From contig DYLP01000008.1 of NCBI GenBank assembly GCA_020722005.1, forward strand, positions 25,032 through 79,474: a stretch of 54,443 nt of DNA, in the 5' to 3' direction. This document shows positions 32,388-39,244 of the stretch, piece after piece. This DNA is from Melioribacter roseus (GTDB taxonomy: Bacteria > Bacteroidota > Ignavibacteria > Ignavibacteriales > Melioribacteraceae). Both the position numbers and the translations under genes were made by a program. Under the pieces are notes generated by a model. That model saw nothing but the letters and a program-made list of their open reading frames with translations, ran no database searches and was not told the DNA's origin. The stretch's first letter is position 1. Each line of letters begins with the position of its first letter.

Positions 32388-32528
32388 AAAGCCCTCCCTC
32401 GTGATGTTTAAAAGTAGCTACTATGCCTGTTATTATTTCTATAGAAAATATATTTTTTACAATTTAGATGAGCATTTTATAATTATCAGCTATAATGAAT
32501 ATTTATGCAAATTCTTTTTTTGAAGATA

Positions 32529-32560
32529 TTGACTTAATAGTATAATTTTCTCTATCTTTG
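32529..32560 (+). promoter_or_regulatory. Promoter of the trp leader
   Basis: TTG (32529-32531), 21-base spacer, TATCTTTG (32553-32560), fitting the Bacteroidota -33/-7 consensus. Initiation would fall at about 32566-32568, right at an ATGATG, so the leader could be translated from a leaderless or near-leaderless transcript. Confidence 0.6.
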
Positions 32561-32597
32561 CAGTCAAATGATGAACGTAATTTTCACATATGGCAAA

Positions 32598-32657
32598 ATG
32601 AACAGAAATCACTGGTGGTGGCGCAGAGATATATCCGTCATCTCAGTGATAACATAA
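32598..32657 (+). CDS. trpL: trp operon leader peptide with three consecutive Trp codons
   Basis: A 19-codon ORF encodes MNRNHWWWRRDISVISVIT, with TGG TGG TGG at 32613-32621. In-frame ATGs at 32568 and 32571 could extend it by up to ten residues and may be the true start if the mRNA begins there. The Trp codons lie in a region that can pair with downstream sequence (ATCACTG 32608-32614 with CAGTGAT 32644-32650). The stop codon lies inside the antiterminator strand, so a ribosome that finishes the peptide would block antitermination. It precedes trpE by 77 bases. The ORF and the pairings are directly visible; the regulatory function is inferred. Confidence 0.88.
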   Translation: MNRNHWWWRRDISVISVIT

Positions 32658-32707
32658 ATTAGTTTAAAATAATTAAATGCAAGAAACCCTTCTTAGTTAT
32701 CACTGAG
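32642..32707 (+). promoter_or_regulatory. trp antiterminator pairing (regions 2 and 3)
   Basis: CTCAGTGATAAC (32642-32653) is perfectly complementary over 12 bp to GTTATCACTGAG (32696-32707). That second strand contains the loop and the first half of the descending arm of the terminator, so the two folds exclude each other. Confidence 0.85.
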
Positions 32708-32718
32708 AAGGGTTTTTT
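32685..32718 (+). terminator. trp attenuator terminator
   Basis: AACCCTTCTTAG (32685-32696) pairs with CTGAGAAGGGTT (32703-32714) with one G-U pair and a 6-base loop, followed by a run of T to 32718. It stands between the leader peptide and trpE, 17 bases before the trpE ATG. Confidence 0.9.
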
Positions 32719-32734
32719 GTTTTAAAGAGGTTGA

Positions 32735-34216
32735 ATGGACTACAATAAATTTTTATCGCTGGCAGAAAGATACAATACCGTTCCGGTTTATGACAAACTG
32801 GCTGCTGATTTACAAACTCCTGTATCGGCATATCTCAAACTGCGTAAATTTTCGAATTCCTCCTTTCTGTTAGAATCGGTTGAAGGGATTGGCAGACTGG
32901 CGCGTTATTCGTTTATCGGTATAGATCCGGAAATAATCATTTCCAACCGCTACAAAAAAGTTAAAATAGAAAAGCAAGGTAAATCGGAAACAATCGAGAC
33001 CAATCTTTTCGATTATTTGCAGCAATCGACAGTGAGTCAGGATTACCCTCTTATCGACGAACTCCCCTACTTCACCGGCGGCTGGGTAGGTTATATCGGC
33101 TTCGACAATATTTCATTAATAGAGAATGTTATCGATTATAAAGATCACAACGGGCACGAATTCCCCGATTCAATTCTCGGCTTCTTCAAAACCATAATCG
33201 TTTTCGACCATTTCAAGCATCAATTAATACTAATTGACAATGCTGATTGTACAGATAAAACTGCATTGAAAAGTGCATACGACTCGTCAATAAAAAAGAT
33301 TGGGAAAATAAAAATATTATTGAACGAAGAATTAAGATACAAATCCAATTTCGAAGTAGATGCAAAAGAACTCGATAAGAGTGAAGAAAACGATTTTTTA
33401 AGATTAGTCGAAAAGAGTAAAACAAATATCTACAAGGGAGACGTGTTTCAAATTGTATTATCGAGAAGATTCGAAGCCGATTATAAAGGAGACCTATTCA
33501 ATGTATATAGGGCGCTGAGAATGATAAATCCTTCACCGTATATGTACTATATAAGCTTTGGGAATGATATTAAAGTAGCAGGGACATCGCCAGAGGACCT
33601 TCTGAAAGTAAAGGACAGGAAAGCGGAAATTCTTCCGATCGCAGGCACTCGCCGCCGCGGCAGAAACGAAGAAGAAGACAAAATGCTCGAAGAAAATTTA
33701 ATTAACGACCCGAAAGAGATTGCCGAGCATGTAATGCTTGTTGACCTGGCACGCAACGACCTGGGAAGAGTTTGCAAAACAGGGACGGTAAAGATAAGCG
33801 AGAATATGAAAATCAATCGGTTTTCTCATGTAATGCATATAGTCTCCAGAGTCGAAGGAATCTTGAAAGACGAACTCGATTCAATCGACGCTCTTAAAGC
33901 TGCCTTCCCAGCAGGTACAGTCTCCGGTGCTCCCAAAATAAGAGCTATACAATTGATTAATCAATACGAAAAGTTCAAACGAGGTCTATATGCCGGCTCT
34001 GTCGGATACATCGACTTCCGGGGCAATCTCGATATGTGCATTGCCATTCGAACTTTGTGGGCAAACAATCGAAACATTTTCTGGCAGGCTGGAGCAGGTA
34101 TTGTAGCCGACAGCCGTCCGGAGCTCGAATTGAAAGAAATTAAAAATAAATCAGCTGTACTTCTGAGCGCATTAAAATTAGCAGAGATAATTGATGAAAA
34201 TATTGATAATAGATAA
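32735..34216 (+). CDS. trpE: Anthranilate synthase component I
   Basis: Chorismate + ammonia (from TrpG) to anthranilate. The 493 residues end with the standard chorismate-binding block: VFQIVLSRRFE, SPEDLLKV, PIAGTRRRG, EHVMLVDLARNDLGRV, FPAGTVSGAPKIRA, QAGAGIVADS. The N-terminal half includes an LLES element (SSFLLESVEGIGRLARYSFIG) that forms the tryptophan feedback site in this family. An AGAGG site precedes the ATG. It is the first gene of the seven-gene operon and overlaps trpG by 23 bases. Control is by the attenuator just upstream. Confidence 0.97.
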   Translation: MDYNKFLSLAERYNTVPVYDKLAADLQTPVSAYLKLRKFSNSSFLLESVEGIGRLARYSFIGIDPEIIISNRYKKVKIEKQGKSETIETNLFDYLQQSTVSQDYPLIDELPYFTGGWVGYIGFDNISLIENVIDYKDHNGHEFPDSILGFFKTIIVFDHFKHQLILIDNADCTDKTALKSAYDSSIKKIGKIKILLNEELRYKSNFEVDAKELDKSEENDFLRLVEKSKTNIYKGDVFQIVLSRRFEADYKGDLFNVYRALRMINPSPYMYYISFGNDIKVAGTSPEDLLKVKDRKAEILPIAGTRRRGRNEEEDKMLEENLINDPKEIAEHVMLVDLARNDLGRVCKTGTVKISENMKINRFSHVMHIVSRVEGILKDELDSIDALKAAFPAGTVSGAPKIRAIQLINQYEKFKRGLYAGSVGYIDFRGNLDMCIAIRTLWANNRNIFWQAGAGIVADSRPELELKEIKNKSAVLLSALKLAEIIDENIDNR

Positions 34217-34763
34217 TTACGATTCGTTCACTTATAATTTGGTTCAGCTCATCGGCATCTATGCTTCCGATATTATTGTGGAACGAAACGACAAAGTCTC
34301 AATCGCCGACATTACCCGAATTAAGCCAAATAAAATTGTAATTTCTCCCGGTCCCGGCACGCCGGAAGAATCGGGTATTTCTATTGAAGTTGTCCGAACG
34401 TTCGGGAAGGATATACCGGTTCTGGGAGTTTGCCTTGGTCATCAAGTTATCGGATTTAGTTTCGGAGGTAAAATAATTAACGCCCCTTCGCTGATGCATG
34501 GCAAAACTTCGTTAATTAAACACGACGGCAAAACAATCTACTCCAATATCGAACAGAAATTCGAGGCAGGCAGATACCACTCGCTGGTTATCGACAAAGA
34601 TACTCTGCCCGATGAACTCGAAATATCTTCCACTACTACGGACGGAATTATTATGGGAGTAAGACATAAATCTTTTCCAATTGAAGGTATTCAATTTCAT
34701 CCCGAATCGATTTTAACAAAAGTTGGCAATTTAATAATCAAAAACTGGTTGGAAATATGTTAA
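34194..34763 (+). CDS. trpG: Anthranilate synthase component II (glutamine amidotransferase)
   Basis: Supplies ammonia to TrpE from glutamine. The 189-residue class I amidotransferase has ILIIDNYDSFTYNLVQ, SPGPGTPEESG, the nucleophile in VLGVCLGHQVIG and the His-Glu pair in GIQFHPESIL. The ATG at 34194 is taken over the TTG one codon earlier. Its end overlaps trpD by 7 bases. It is a separate protein here, not fused to TrpE or TrpD. Confidence 0.96.
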   Translation: MKILIIDNYDSFTYNLVQLIGIYASDIIVERNDKVSIADITRIKPNKIVISPGPGTPEESGISIEVVRTFGKDIPVLGVCLGHQVIGFSFGGKIINAPSLMHGKTSLIKHDGKTIYSNIEQKFEAGRYHSLVIDKDTLPDELEISSTTTDGIIMGVRHKSFPIEGIQFHPESILTKVGNLIIKNWLEIC

Positions 34764-35767
34764 AAGAATATATCGAAAAAATAAGCAGCGGAGAAAATCT
34801 ATCATTCCAGGAATCTCAAATCGCCATGTCACGTATAATGAGCGGAGAATGTAACAATTCCCAGATAGCCGGCCTTTTGACTGCATTGAAAACAAAGGGG
34901 GAAACCGCAAAAGAAGTAGCAGGTTTTGCGAGCGCCATGCGAGAATTTAGCATTAAGATTGAAATTGAAGACGATAATGTAATCGACGTATGCGGCACTG
35001 GAGGCGACAATTCTGGCACATTCAATATATCTACAGCAGCTGCGTTTGTTGTTGCCGGCGCAGGTCTTAAAGTGGCTAAACACGGCAACAGGTCGATATC
35101 GAGTAAATGCGGAAGTGCAGATGTTCTTTCCCTATTGGGGATTAATATTAACCTTGCGCCTGAGCAGTCAAAGCTCGCTCTCGATAAAATCGGTATAGCC
35201 TTTTTATTCGCACCGTTTTATCATCCTGCTATGAAATACGCTGCGCCTGTACGTAAAGAACTCGGTATGAAAACTATATTTAACATCTTAGGTCCACTGA
35301 CAAATCCTGCAGGCACAAAAAAGCAACTTATCGGAACATTCAATAATAGGACTTCGGCTTTAATGGCTGAAGCTGCTCCTTATCTCAATATGAGATCGGT
35401 ATCTTTTGTTTGTACTGCCGACAGATACGATGAAATTACTTTGACGGATAAAAGCAACGTTATAATCTATAATAAAAACAAACCGACTGAAAGGATTACT
35501 ATTGACAATTCGGATTTTTCGTTCGATAAAATTAATATAAAAAATATAACCAGCAATTCGCCCGAAGAGAATGTGAAATTTATTCTAAGCGTTATTAAGG
35601 AAAAACAAAAATCCGACGCGTATAATGTCGTGGTTGCAAATTCCGCCATAGCTCTTCTTACTGCCGGGGCAGCTGCATCGCTCGACGAAGCAAAATCCCG
35701 CGCAATCGAATCAATTGAATCGGGCAATGCCTATAAAAAATTGTCAGCACTCACTAATTTCGGGTAA
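34757..35767 (+). CDS. trpD: Anthranilate phosphoribosyltransferase
   Basis: Joins anthranilate to PRPP. The 336-residue protein shows the family motifs DVCGTGGDNSGTFNISTAAAFVVAGAGLKVAKHGNRSISSKCGSADVL and IFNILGPLTNPAG. The PRPP-binding GTGGD and the KHGNR segment are intact. The start ATG overlaps the trpG stop, and trpC follows after 6 bases. Confidence 0.96.
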   Translation: MLKEYIEKISSGENLSFQESQIAMSRIMSGECNNSQIAGLLTALKTKGETAKEVAGFASAMREFSIKIEIEDDNVIDVCGTGGDNSGTFNISTAAAFVVAGAGLKVAKHGNRSISSKCGSADVLSLLGININLAPEQSKLALDKIGIAFLFAPFYHPAMKYAAPVRKELGMKTIFNILGPLTNPAGTKKQLIGTFNNRTSALMAEAAPYLNMRSVSFVCTADRYDEITLTDKSNVIIYNKNKPTERITIDNSDFSFDKINIKNITSNSPEENVKFILSVIKEKQKSDAYNVVVANSAIALLTAGAAASLDEAKSRAIESIESGNAYKKLSALTNFG

Positions 35768-35773
35768 TAAACA

Positions 35774-36577
35774 ATGAGCTTTCTCGAACAAATAATTAAT
35801 ACAAAAAAAGAAGAAATAATAAACTTACGTAAGAAATTCTCGCTTCGTTTTTTTGAAGATCAGGAATTTTTTCACTCTCCCACACTGAGTCTGATTGATT
35901 CATTATTCGAATCAAAGAGACTGAGCTTGATTGCGGAAATTAAAAAAGCCAGTCCATCAAAAGGCATACTGCGCGAGGATTTTAATCATATTGATATCGC
36001 AAAAATCTATATGAACAATAAAGTAAATGCAATTTCAGTATTAACAGATTCGAAGTATTTCCAGGTTTCACTAGACTATTTAAAAGAAATTGCAAAATTC
36101 AAAACCGTTCCTTTGTTACGAAAAGATTTTATAATAGATGAATATCAAATTTTCGAAGCAAAAGCTTCAGGCGCCGATGTCGTACTGTTAATTGGCGAAG
36201 CTTTGTCGACAGAGCAGTCCGACTCTTTGATTGCCGTTGCAAATGAATGCAATCTTGAAATTTTGTACGAAATTCACTCGCCTACTCAACTCGATAAAAT
36301 CGATTTCAACAAAATTAAATTAATCGGAATTAACAACCGCAACCTCGAAACGTTTGAAGTTGATATTCGTACAACCAGAAAGATAGCCGACTTATTACCT
36401 GAAGGAATCGTTGCAATTTCCGAAAGCGGCATTACTACACCAAACGACATTAAGATTGTTTCTCATGAAAAAGTAAAAGGCCTTTTGGTTGGCGAATATT
36501 TTATGAAATCTACTGACATAGAAATTGCACTCAGGAATTTCATTAATAATCTCGAAAATATTAGCAATGAGAATTAA
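35774..36577 (+). CDS. trpC: Indole-3-glycerol phosphate synthase
   Basis: Ring-closing step of tryptophan synthesis. The (beta/alpha)8 barrel of 267 residues has LIAEIKKASPSKGILREDF, ISVLTDSKYFQVSLDYLKEI, PLLRKDFIIDEYQI, LIGINNRNLETFEVD and AISESGITTPNDI. The catalytic Lys and Glu residues of these motifs are present. It is not fused to TrpF, which starts inside the trpC end (11-base overlap). Confidence 0.96.
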   Translation: MSFLEQIINTKKEEIINLRKKFSLRFFEDQEFFHSPTLSLIDSLFESKRLSLIAEIKKASPSKGILREDFNHIDIAKIYMNNKVNAISVLTDSKYFQVSLDYLKEIAKFKTVPLLRKDFIIDEYQIFEAKASGADVVLLIGEALSTEQSDSLIAVANECNLEILYEIHSPTQLDKIDFNKIKLIGINNRNLETFEVDIRTTRKIADLLPEGIVAISESGITTPNDIKIVSHEKVKGLLVGEYFMKSTDIEIALRNFINNLENISNEN

Positions 36578-37181
36578 GATCTGCGGTATAACGAATTATA
36601 GTGACGCTATCGTCGCATACGAAGCGGGAGCCGATGCTCTTGGATTTATCTTCTATAACAAAAGTAAAAGATACATCGACCCAATTATAGCTTCAAATAT
36701 TATTCGTAAACTACCACCATTTATAACAACGGTTGGAGTTTTTGTTAACTCCTCAGTAGAAGAGATAAACAGGATTGTAGATATCTGCAATATCAATATT
36801 ATTCAGTTGCACGGCGATGAAAAACCGGATATAATTCCTTTGCTTAATAGACCTGTAATTAAAAGTTTTAGAATAACTAATGAATTTCGTTTTGAAGTTT
36901 TAGAGCAATATAAAAATTGTTTTTATTTACTGGATTCATATTCTGAAAATGAATACGGTGGAACGGGAAAAAAATTCGATTGGGACATTATACCAGAAAA
37001 TTTAAAAAACAAAATCATTCTTGCCGGAGGAATACGAAAAGATGATTTAGAAAGAATACGAACGAGCATTAATCCTCCCGCTATCGACGTTTCCTCGTCA
37101 ATCGAATTGGCACCAGGGAAAAAGGACATTATTAAACTAAAAGAGTTTATGAATGAATTACACAGAATTTACCCCAGATAG
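36567..37181 (+). CDS. trpF: Phosphoribosylanthranilate isomerase
   Basis: Amadori isomerisation of phosphoribosylanthranilate. The 204 residues show IKICGITNYSDAIVAYEAGADALGFIFYNKSKRYI (catalytic Cys in KICG), VGVFVN, IQLHGDE, LLDSYSENEYGGTGKKFDWD (catalytic Asp in LLD) and ILAGGI. The ATG at 36567 gives the conserved MRIKICG start; the frame runs further upstream, but that part is trpC. An 88-base gap before trpB holds a hairpin. Confidence 0.94.
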   Translation: MRIKICGITNYSDAIVAYEAGADALGFIFYNKSKRYIDPIIASNIIRKLPPFITTVGVFVNSSVEEINRIVDICNINIIQLHGDEKPDIIPLLNRPVIKSFRITNEFRFEVLEQYKNCFYLLDSYSENEYGGTGKKFDWDIIPENLKNKIILAGGIRKDDLERIRTSINPPAIDVSSSIELAPGKKDIIKLKEFMNELHRIYPR

Positions 37182-37191
37182 ATGCATACAC

Positions 37192-37226
37192 TCCGACCGG
37201 GTCTTTGAGTTCGTTTACCCGACGGA
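37192..37226 (+). repeat. Intercistronic hairpin between trpF and trpB
   Basis: TCCGACCGGGT and ACCCGACGGA can pair with one bulge around a 14-base loop. A second, competing pairing exists between CCGGG and CCCGG further on. No U-tract follows directly. It may stabilise the upstream mRNA or tune trpB output. Confidence 0.4.
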
Positions 37227-37268
37227 CAGAGGGCCCGGCTTATTTATTAATTATGCAGGAAATGAAAA

Positions 37269-38468
37269 ATGAAAAATTATAACGTACCGGATAAATCAGG
37301 TAAATATGGAATATACGGCGGGCAATTTGTACCGGAGACATTAATCGGTGCACTCGAGTCGCTCGAACAAGTATACCTGAAATTAAAAAATGATAAAAAC
37401 TTTTTAGAAAAATTAAATGAACTTCAAAGTGAATATAACGGCAGACCGACGCCATTAACATTTGCTAATCGATTAACAGAATATTACGGCAGAGCCAAAA
37501 TATATTTAAAGAGAGAGGACTTATGTCATACAGGTGCTCATAAACTTAACAACGCTCTTGGACAAATTTTACTGTCAAAGTATCTCGGCAAAGAAAGGAT
37601 AATTGCAGAAACTGGGGCGGGTCAACATGGAGTTGCAACTGCAACAGTATGCGCCAAATTCGGCATGCAATGCGTAGTATATATGGGCGAAGAAGATATC
37701 GAACGACAAAAACCAAATGTCTTTCGCATGAAATTACTTGGCGCCGAAGTTAGACCAGTTTCTTCCGGAAGTAAAACTCTCAAAGACGCTACTAACGAAG
37801 CAATCCGAGACTGGGTTACCAATGTAAAAAATACTCATTACATCATAGGCTCTGTTGTTGGACCACATCCCTATCCGATGATAGTGCGCGACTTTCAGTC
37901 AATTATCGGCATAGAAACCCGAGCACAAATTTTAAGTAAAGAAAATCGATTGCCTGATTATATTATTGCTTGCGTAGGAGGCGGCTCAAATGCCATCGGT
38001 ATTTTTTATCCATTTCTTAACGACGAGTCAGTTAAATTAATCGGAGTTGAAGCAGCGGGTGAAGGTCTCGATACAAATAAACATTGTGCCACATTGACTC
38101 TCGGAACACCAGGTATTTTCCAGGGGATGTACACATATCTTATTCAATCAGAAGAGGGACAAATTTCCGAAGTCCATTCAATTTCTGCAGGATTAGATTA
38201 TCCGGGCGTAGGACCTGAACATTCTTATTTGAAAGATAAAAGTCGTGTCGAATACGGAGCCGTAACGGATCAAGAAGCTTTAAAAGCAGTAGATCTGTTG
38301 ACCAGATTGGAAGGCATACTGCCGGCGCTAGAATCTGCCCATGCAATTGCGTATCTGGAAAAAATGATCGAGACTACAGATAAAGACGATATTATTATAA
38401 TTAATCTGAGTGGACGCGGCGACAAAGATCTTGCAACTTTAATAAATCATTCCGGGAATAAATTATGA
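37269..38468 (+). CDS. trpB: Tryptophan synthase beta chain
   Basis: PLP enzyme that joins indole and serine. The 399 residues include [29 protein letters not shown] with the PLP lysine K92, [31 protein letters not shown] and [10 protein letters not shown] at the end. This is the standard TrpB1 form that works in complex with TrpA. AGGA lies upstream of the ATG, and the stop overlaps the trpA start (ATGA). Confidence 0.97.
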
Positions 38469-39244
38469 AAATTAAAAACACAATTAATACTATCATTAAT
38501 AATAATAAAAAGGCTCTGGCTATTTTTCTTACTGCAGGCTTTCCGAACAAAAACAAATTCATTGATTATGTAAAAGCCACTCTGGATGGCGGAGCAGATA
38601 TATTGGAGATTGGAATTCCTTTCAGCGATCCCCTGGCTGATGGACCTGTTATTCAGAAATCTTCAACACTGGCACTTAAAGAAAATTTCAGAATGAAAGA
38701 CATTTTTAACTATATCGAGGAAATCAGAAAATACTCCGACATACCGCCAATATTAATGGGATATGCAAACCCAATAAATAAATATGATAAAGAAAAATTT
38801 TTAATCGATGCAGCAAATTGTGGCGTAGAAGGTTTAATAGTTCCAGATATACCGCTTGAAGAATATGATTTCTTTTTCCCTGCAGAAAAGCATAATCTTG
38901 AAATAATTCTACTAACAACTCCCACTTCTTCGAGCGAGCGCATAAAAGCTATCGACAAGAAGAGCGAAGGTTTTGTTTACTGTGTCAGCGTTACAGGAAC
39001 AACAGGTGCCGATAAAAAATTCGACGATTACACTATGGAACATCTTAGACGCACTTATTCGTTGATAACAAAAAACAAAATGATGATCGGGTTCGGCATA
39101 GGAAAGCCTGAAGACATAAGAAAATTTTACGATTATTCAAATGGCTTTATTGTGGGAAGCAGAATTATTAAGTCGATACTTGAGGGTATCGAACCCGACG
39201 GGATATCGAATACCGTGGCACTATTTAAAAATGCTTGCAATTAG
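38465..39244 (+). CDS. trpA: Tryptophan synthase alpha chain
   Basis: Cleaves indole-3-glycerol phosphate to indole, which is channelled to TrpB. The 259 residues show [40 protein letters not shown] (catalytic Glu and Asp in these strands), [25 protein letters not shown] and [11 protein letters not shown]. It is the last trp gene. It meets the convergent rhodanese gene with a 4-base overlap and no separate terminator. Confidence 0.96.

Follow-up and report, generated by a model that had tools for sequence, protein, structure and literature searches.

The window, by which we mean the whole stretch of 54,443 nucleotides analysed here, contains an intact tryptophan operon, trpE to trpA in the gene order trpEGDCFBA, directly 3' of the leader region considered below. 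The nearest named TrpE to that of the window comes from a Melioribacter MAG (locus L039; 69% identity), and the bacterium is a relative of Melioribacter. The leader and operon features are collected in Table 1, along with those of a second leader region, before hisG.

Table 1. Features of the trp and his leader regions and genes of the trp operon in the window
Feature	Position	Strand	Basis
Promoter-like elements: TTGAC (32529-32533) with TATCTTTG (32553-32560), a -7 element of Bacteroidota type	32529..32560	+	sequence
Leader peptide ORF, 29 aa, MMNVIFTYGKMNRNHWWWRRDISVISVIT*	32568..32657	+	sequence; Trp-rich leader ORF in 58/58 loci read
Predicted region 1, pairing with region 2 (32644-32650) and overlapping the first Trp codon	32608..32614	+	MFE hairpin 32608-32650, inverted repeat, pairing probability
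Three consecutive Trp codons TGG TGG TGG (TGGTGGTGG), codons 16-18	32613..32621	+	sequence
Region 2, antiterminator strand TCTCAGTGATAAC	32641..32653	+	complementarity, covariation
Terminator ascending arm (core CCCTTCTTAG, 32687-32696)	32681..32697	+	fold, inverted repeat, covariation
Terminator loop with the proximal part of the descending arm, GTTATCACTGAGA, pairing with region 2	32696..32708	+	complementarity, duplex energies
Terminator descending arm with U tract 32713-32718	32702..32718	+	fold, inverted repeat, covariation
trpE, opening the operon and encoding anthranilate synthase component I	32735..34216	+	TIGR00564 above cut-off
trpG, trpD, trpC, trpF, trpB, trpA	34194..39244	+	NCBIfam matches, ORF coordinates
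Second leader-peptide attenuator, before hisG	47035-46910	-	leader ORF and terminator
His leader ORF MERRIHTGNWHHHYFSYTCSAGIL*	47035-46961	-	sequence
His-His-His	47005-46997	-	sequence
his terminator	46936-46910	-	sequence

The trp leader region of the window

A leader with three consecutive Trp codons had been predicted upstream of trpE and is indeed there: TGGTGGTGG is unique in the window, both strands having been scanned, and is in frame within the leader ORF. The original prediction went astray in placing the leader stop inside the antiterminator strand. The in-frame stop is the TAA at 32655-32657, which begins 2 nt after the last base of that strand; the TGA at 32647-32649, within the strand, is out of frame with the leader ORF. 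In the 44 trpE loci compared below, the eighth leader codon specifies Tyr in 35 cases and the seventh Thr in 24 (codons 7-8 of the window are at 32586-32591), while ACATAT precedes the Trp codons in 26. The position of this Tyr is fixed relative to the start codon, and the helices of the window do not account for it.

Upstream of the leader ORF is a promoter-like pair of elements that the prediction had not mentioned, with TTGAC ending 34 nt and TATCTTTG ending 7 nt before the leader ATG. The consensus TAnnTTTG, which we take to be the Bacteroidota -7 element, occurs in 26 of the 44 loci at a distance of 4-13 nt upstream of an in-frame ATG, in a scan that favoured gaps near 8 nt; a further 13 loci have a weaker element and five have none. 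Transcription in Bacteroidota starts a few nucleotides after the -7 element. If it starts a few nucleotides after TATCTTTG, as we infer, the leader ORF is almost leaderless.

The predicted terminator with its U tract is present as well. Within its stem the core ascending arm pairs with 32703-32712, and the region 32669-32718 folds with z = -7.16. A simple terminator scan of the window called no terminator here, a miss that we suppose to result from the stem running into the U tract. The antiterminator, described beforehand as a perfect 12-bp pairing of 32642-32653 with 32696-32707, proves to be slightly longer, the true match being 13 nt (32641-32653 with 32696-32708). When 32622-32684 was subjected to 5000 dinucleotide shuffles, no match to the terminator was longer than 10 nt, and 13 nt was reached in 0/5000. 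As had been claimed, the antiterminator takes the loop and descending arm of the terminator: the duplex has an energy of -20.0 kcal/mol, against -5.4 kcal/mol for the ascending arm plus loop. Antiterminator and terminator are mutually exclusive.

The minimum free energy fold adds a hairpin, 32608-32650, overlapping the Trp codons and absent from the original prediction. Beginning at the His-Trp codons, this hairpin takes up the antiterminator strand; its arms (32608-32614 and 32644-32650, the 1:2 pairing) are extended in the fold. With leader ORF, terminator, antiterminator and a predicted 1:2 hairpin, the window thus has the parts of the classical scheme. The claim of a complete trp-operon attenuator is essentially sustained, with dependence on Trp as a presumed property.

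Conservation and the arm taken by the antiterminator

A TrpE query against 58 related genomes gave 43 TrpE loci with upstream DNA, the window included, and L039 brought the set to 44. One genome was left out as its TrpE is broken at the contig start, without upstream DNA (G030), and another was left out of the alignments as its TrpE is split between contigs (G026); the leader ORF of the latter, read separately, is also Trp-rich and fits the pattern. A contig search for TrpE gave only two loci, and L040, a Methanophagales archaeon TrpE locus at 38% identity, was not used. All 44 loci have a terminator upstream of trpE and all 44 have Trp in the leader ORF: two residues in 3 loci, three in 20, four in 19 and five in 2. 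The most divergent leader, with Trp-Ile-Trp, is that of L038, from a GC-rich genome; this locus is part of alignment A1 and of the 44-locus counts, but not of alignment A2 or of the covariance model R1.

A search of 294 genomes of the class with R1 found matches in 44 of the 59 listed genomes of the order, of which 30 had supplied the model and 14 had not. Of the 14 matched genomes of the order that had not supplied R1, all but G295 served as a held-out set of 13 loci. In 13/13 of these a Trp-cluster leader ORF precedes TrpE, together with a terminator for which the loop and descending arm are the stronger partner; one of them, L067, shares its encoded leader with L039, and the two are probably from a single organism. 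Altogether, a Trp-rich leader ORF is seen in 58/58 TrpE loci read in the order, so that the leader ORF is conserved in relatives, a check that the prediction itself had named.

Both pairings of the terminator region show compensatory change. In the MAFFT alignment A1 (44 loci), 97.2% of cells in the terminator stem are paired, with 28 double changes against 6.8 in shuffles, and the antiterminator pairing has 86.5% of cells paired with 31 double changes against 11.3, the shuffles in each case ignoring relatedness. Sliding the antiterminator partner along A1 gave at most 46.7% paired. In A2 (43 loci, without L038) the antiterminator reaches 90.4% paired, with 31 double changes against 10.4 in shuffles that likewise ignore relatedness; the number of pairs showing a double change, four, is no more than in shuffles (285/500). 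The compensatory changes support both the terminator and the pairing with loop and descending arm.

A true attenuator might alternatively employ a canonical antiterminator of the ascending arm, the complementarity to loop and descending arm being a by-product of a palindromic terminator. There are loci that lean this way: five of them (L024, L032, L037, L043 and L052) carry an additional segment able to pair with the ascending arm, and in duplex energies calculated for the segment following the Trp codons the ascending arm plus loop is stronger in 2/44 loci and within 1 kcal/mol in three. Nevertheless, loop and descending arm are the stronger partner by more than 1 kcal/mol in 39/44, the mean z against shuffles over the 44 loci is -2.13 for loop and descending arm but -0.34 for ascending arm and loop, and both the held-out loci and the energies in the window itself agree. 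We accordingly think a canonical arrangement very unlikely. The topology that had been called unusual is real, then, but is not unique to this genome, being found in 39/44 loci, in 13/13 held-out loci and in the 12 Bacteroid-trp members discussed below. Sequence comparison supports the mirrored antiterminator as a general feature of this order.

The 1:2 pairing is significant for the 44 loci as a group: region 2 is paired upstream with a mean probability of 0.70, and when the upstream sequence is shuffled this falls to 0.48 (Wilcoxon p 6e-7, with no correction for relatedness). Singly, the pairing is at p <= 0.05 in only 8/44, the window having p 0.066. The window and L010 have a predicted region 1 that overlaps the Trp codons; in many other loci the partner precedes these codons, by as much as about 45 nt. 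In some leaders (L011, L028, L035 and others) the N-terminal codons show long complementarity to sequence surrounding region 2 or immediately following it; in L011 this complementarity extends to 14 nt and would make a pseudoknot with the antiterminator. As a general feature, pairing of leader N-terminal codons with the pre-terminator stretch was rejected: over 44 loci the own partner was best in only seven, and the window ranks 25/44. Such pairings may be lineage-specific versions of 1:2 or may be left unassigned.

Distribution, known families and the his leader

Within the order the attenuator follows TrpE closely. Among genomes of the order covered by both searches, R1 matches 24/24 with TrpE (20 of them in the model and four not) and 0/8 without. 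The 15 genomes of the order without an R1 match comprise 11 without a TrpE ortholog, G054, where TrpE has the divergent leader, and three others (G253, G280 and G307). Nine genomes of the order with a listed completeness of 97-100% (G029, G012, G033, G017, G035, G045, G048, G050 and G052) have neither a strong TrpE match nor the attenuator, and are possible Trp auxotrophs.

Outside the order R1 gave 20 matches, with E from 3e-7 to 9e-4. Fourteen are upstream of TrpE, and 13/14 of these have a Trp-cluster ORF, no Trp cluster being present at L102; the remaining six matches (L098, L101, L104, L106, L107 and L108), with no TrpE in the stretch concerned, were taken to be chance terminators. When genomes of other orders with TrpE were read directly, a Trp-cluster leader ORF near trpE was found in 13/44, of which 44 one (L153) has only 70 nt of DNA; the 13 are L090, L092, L093, L095, L096, L097, L103, L105, L138, L139, L140, L141 and L158. 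The ORFs of four more (L151, L163, L166 and L171) satisfy the Trp criterion of the script but were scored as non-leaders, either for want of a nearby terminator or for their distance from trpE. No such leader was found in the TrpE-bearing families f10, f18 and f19 or in most of f5. For the analysis of pairing in other orders 14 loci were chosen, and L100, L105 and L140 were dropped because the script did not find their terminator. Complementarity to the loop and descending arm amounts to 6-9 nt in seven of the remaining 11, and to only 4-5 nt in L089, L091, L093 and L158. In L090 and L092, from family f7 in another order of the class, the triplet is replaced wholesale by GAACACCAA / TTGGTGTTC / GAATACCAA with the topology kept.

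This last observation bears on an alternative explanation, in which trpE is preceded by a constitutive intrinsic terminator or a leader-derived small RNA, the short ORF is non-regulatory and the complementarity is left over from repeat-like sequence. The terminator is certainly strong, and read-through is a matter of prediction. Such an explanation nonetheless sits badly with compensatory change in the alternative pairing, with Trp clusters in every one of the leader ORFs read and with a switched triplet that preserves the topology in another order, and we give it little credence.

Current RNA family models do not mark the leader. At gathering score, an Rfam scan of the window returned nothing except a tRNA, with no riboswitch or T-box. 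Neither RF00513 (trp_leader), which we take to represent the E. coli-type trp attenuator, nor RF01692 (Bacteroid-trp) matches in the window at gathering score or in 32400-32800 at E <= 10, and RF01692 matches 0/58 relatives. Matches to SpF51, PyrR, SpF11 and other Rfam families were far below gathering scores, most of them on the terminator, and were set aside. With the E. coli trp attenuator the leader shares tandem Trp codons, a candidate region 1 over the Trp codons, the alternatives of a predicted 1:2 hairpin, antiterminator and terminator, and a terminator before trpE. It departs from the 2:3 arrangement of E. coli in that the loop and descending arm are taken instead of the ascending arm, in its presumably near-leaderless leader ORF and in the lack of an Rfam match.

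Among 198 genomes of the phylum RF01692 has 17 matches, all in family f41 and none in the class of the window. In the 12 of the 17 that were read, the leader has Trp-Trp-Trp and a region 2 complementary to the loop and descending arm (12/12). This region 2 is GTCGTGA in 10/12, with shifted variants of 6-7 nt in two, and region 2 ends with the leader stop in 10/12; the stop adjoins it in L120 and lies 12 nt earlier in L119. The Trp-Trp-Trp leader and the topology, the latter as read from the sequences here, are thus common to the present leader and to the Bacteroid-trp family (RF01692; Weinberg et al. 2010, PMC2864571). Bacteroid-trp differs in sequence and spacing, its region 2 beginning 17-18 nt after the last TGG.

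Two other systems can be likened to the leader of the window. The trp attenuators described in actinobacteria (PMC1262725) have leader peptides with double or triple UGG, a U-tract terminator and conserved complementary triplets, gGCC-rGCy-GGCC; on that description they have the same plan of leader, terminator and triplet, but their triplets are GC-rich and they belong to another phylum. In Sinorhizobium meliloti, the trpLE(G) transcript is described as beginning with a leaderless trpL and as subject to Trp-dependent attenuation of trpE (PMC7298713); by that account the two would be alike in a leaderless or nearly leaderless ORF before trpE and differ in that the S. meliloti system is Alphaproteobacterial. 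A leaderless trpL being already known, a near-leaderless leader here would not be new in kind. The literature searches made found no published description of attenuation in Ignavibacteria; as far as they show, the trp attenuator is known in kind but undescribed in this lineage.

The his leader of the window presents a different topology. The listed hisG start, 46927, falls inside the his terminator, and an ATG at about 46909 is likelier. Of the 42 genomes with HisG, 30 loci were examined, and 27/30 have an ATG-started His-rich leader ORF no more than 220 nt from hisG; the His run of L177 and L203 is not in an ORF begun by ATG, and no His leader is present in L199, a locus of the GC-rich genome G054. 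For duplex energies L177, L198, L199 and L203 were removed beforehand and L179 was then dropped, having no tandem His pair. In the 25 that remain the ascending arm plus loop is stronger in 22, loop and descending arm in one, and the two are within 1 kcal/mol in two. With his on the ascending arm and trp on the loop and descending arm, the genome of the window and many of its relatives use both topologies.

Ribosome geometry and a proposed mechanism

Region 2 is 22-41 nt away from the first TGG in the 44 loci, and 28-37 nt away in 35 of them. The leader stop begins no more than 3 nt from the end of region 2 in 27/44, with exceptions ranging from -27 to +14. Partition-function folding was applied to the RNA exposed as polymerase nears the U tract, with an assumed ribosome footprint of 13 nt ahead of the A site. 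In the window, a ribosome stalled at the first Trp codon gives an antiterminator probability of 0.87-1.00 for exposure to 32706-32712, and the terminator prevails from about 32714 on. A ribosome placed at the stop lets the terminator form from 32708 onwards. On ribosome-free RNA the antiterminator has a short-lived advantage (0.73-0.93 at 32706-32708) before the terminator and the 1:2 hairpin win. Over all loci the antiterminator outweighs the terminator in 41/44 with the ribosome stalled, 7/44 with it at the stop and 16/44 without it, so that the stalled-state calculation fails in 3/44 loci while the antiterminator is not favoured at the stop in 37/44. In this model the geometry fits: a stall would free region 2 and a ribosome at the stop would cover it.

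Once the whole terminator is exposed, it beats the antiterminator in the window, and antitermination must therefore be kinetic. Since the loop would emerge from the polymerase ahead of the descending arm, region 2 could nucleate on the loop first.

The spacing also matters for the possibility that a trans-acting protein, TRAP-like, or a riboswitch acts on the leader in place of ribosome position. Conservation beyond the helices, such as the Tyr at codon 8 in 35/44, goes unexplained by an attenuator model and could be read in favour of such a factor; however, the spacing of Trp codon, stop and region 2 fits a ribosome ruler, and the Rfam scan at gathering score turned up neither riboswitch nor T-box in the window, making this a most improbable mechanism.

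Our preferred reading, to which we assign a probability of about 0.93, is a ribosome-mediated leader-peptide attenuator that would sense charged tRNA-Trp and control trpEGDCFBA, with translation of the leader ORF, stalling and Trp-dependence as its presumed elements. Under Trp starvation, the ribosome on the near-leaderless leader ORF would stall at the Trp codons and cover region 1. Region 2 would be left free to capture the terminator loop and proximal descending arm as polymerase releases them; the terminator would be blocked and transcription would read on into trpE. When Trp is replete, the ribosome would reach the stop and cover region 2, allowing the terminator to form. If the leader were not translated, the 1:2 hairpin would hold region 2 and the terminator would form once its stem was complete.

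A broader proposal, for which we see even odds, is that a mirrored trp attenuator, whose antiterminator nucleates on the loop before invading the descending arm, is employed in Bacteroidota (by Ignavibacteria and, to judge from Bacteroid-trp, by a family of another class), while in the same genomes the his attenuators use the ascending arm. The two topologies would set different decision windows for polymerase, and hence a different sensitivity to ribosome lag.

At the least, the ribosome-mediated reading would extend amino-acid-sensing attenuation by leader peptides, for trp and for his, across an Ignavibacteria order that Rfam leaves unmarked, as judged from the window and from Bacteroid-trp. 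It implies that in these bacteria the ribosome would be close behind RNA polymerase, on a leader ORF starting almost at the 5' end of the transcript. The trp leader, with its loop and descending arm, and the his leader, with its ascending arm and loop, would form a natural pair in which to ask whether the side of the terminator that is captured changes the switch.
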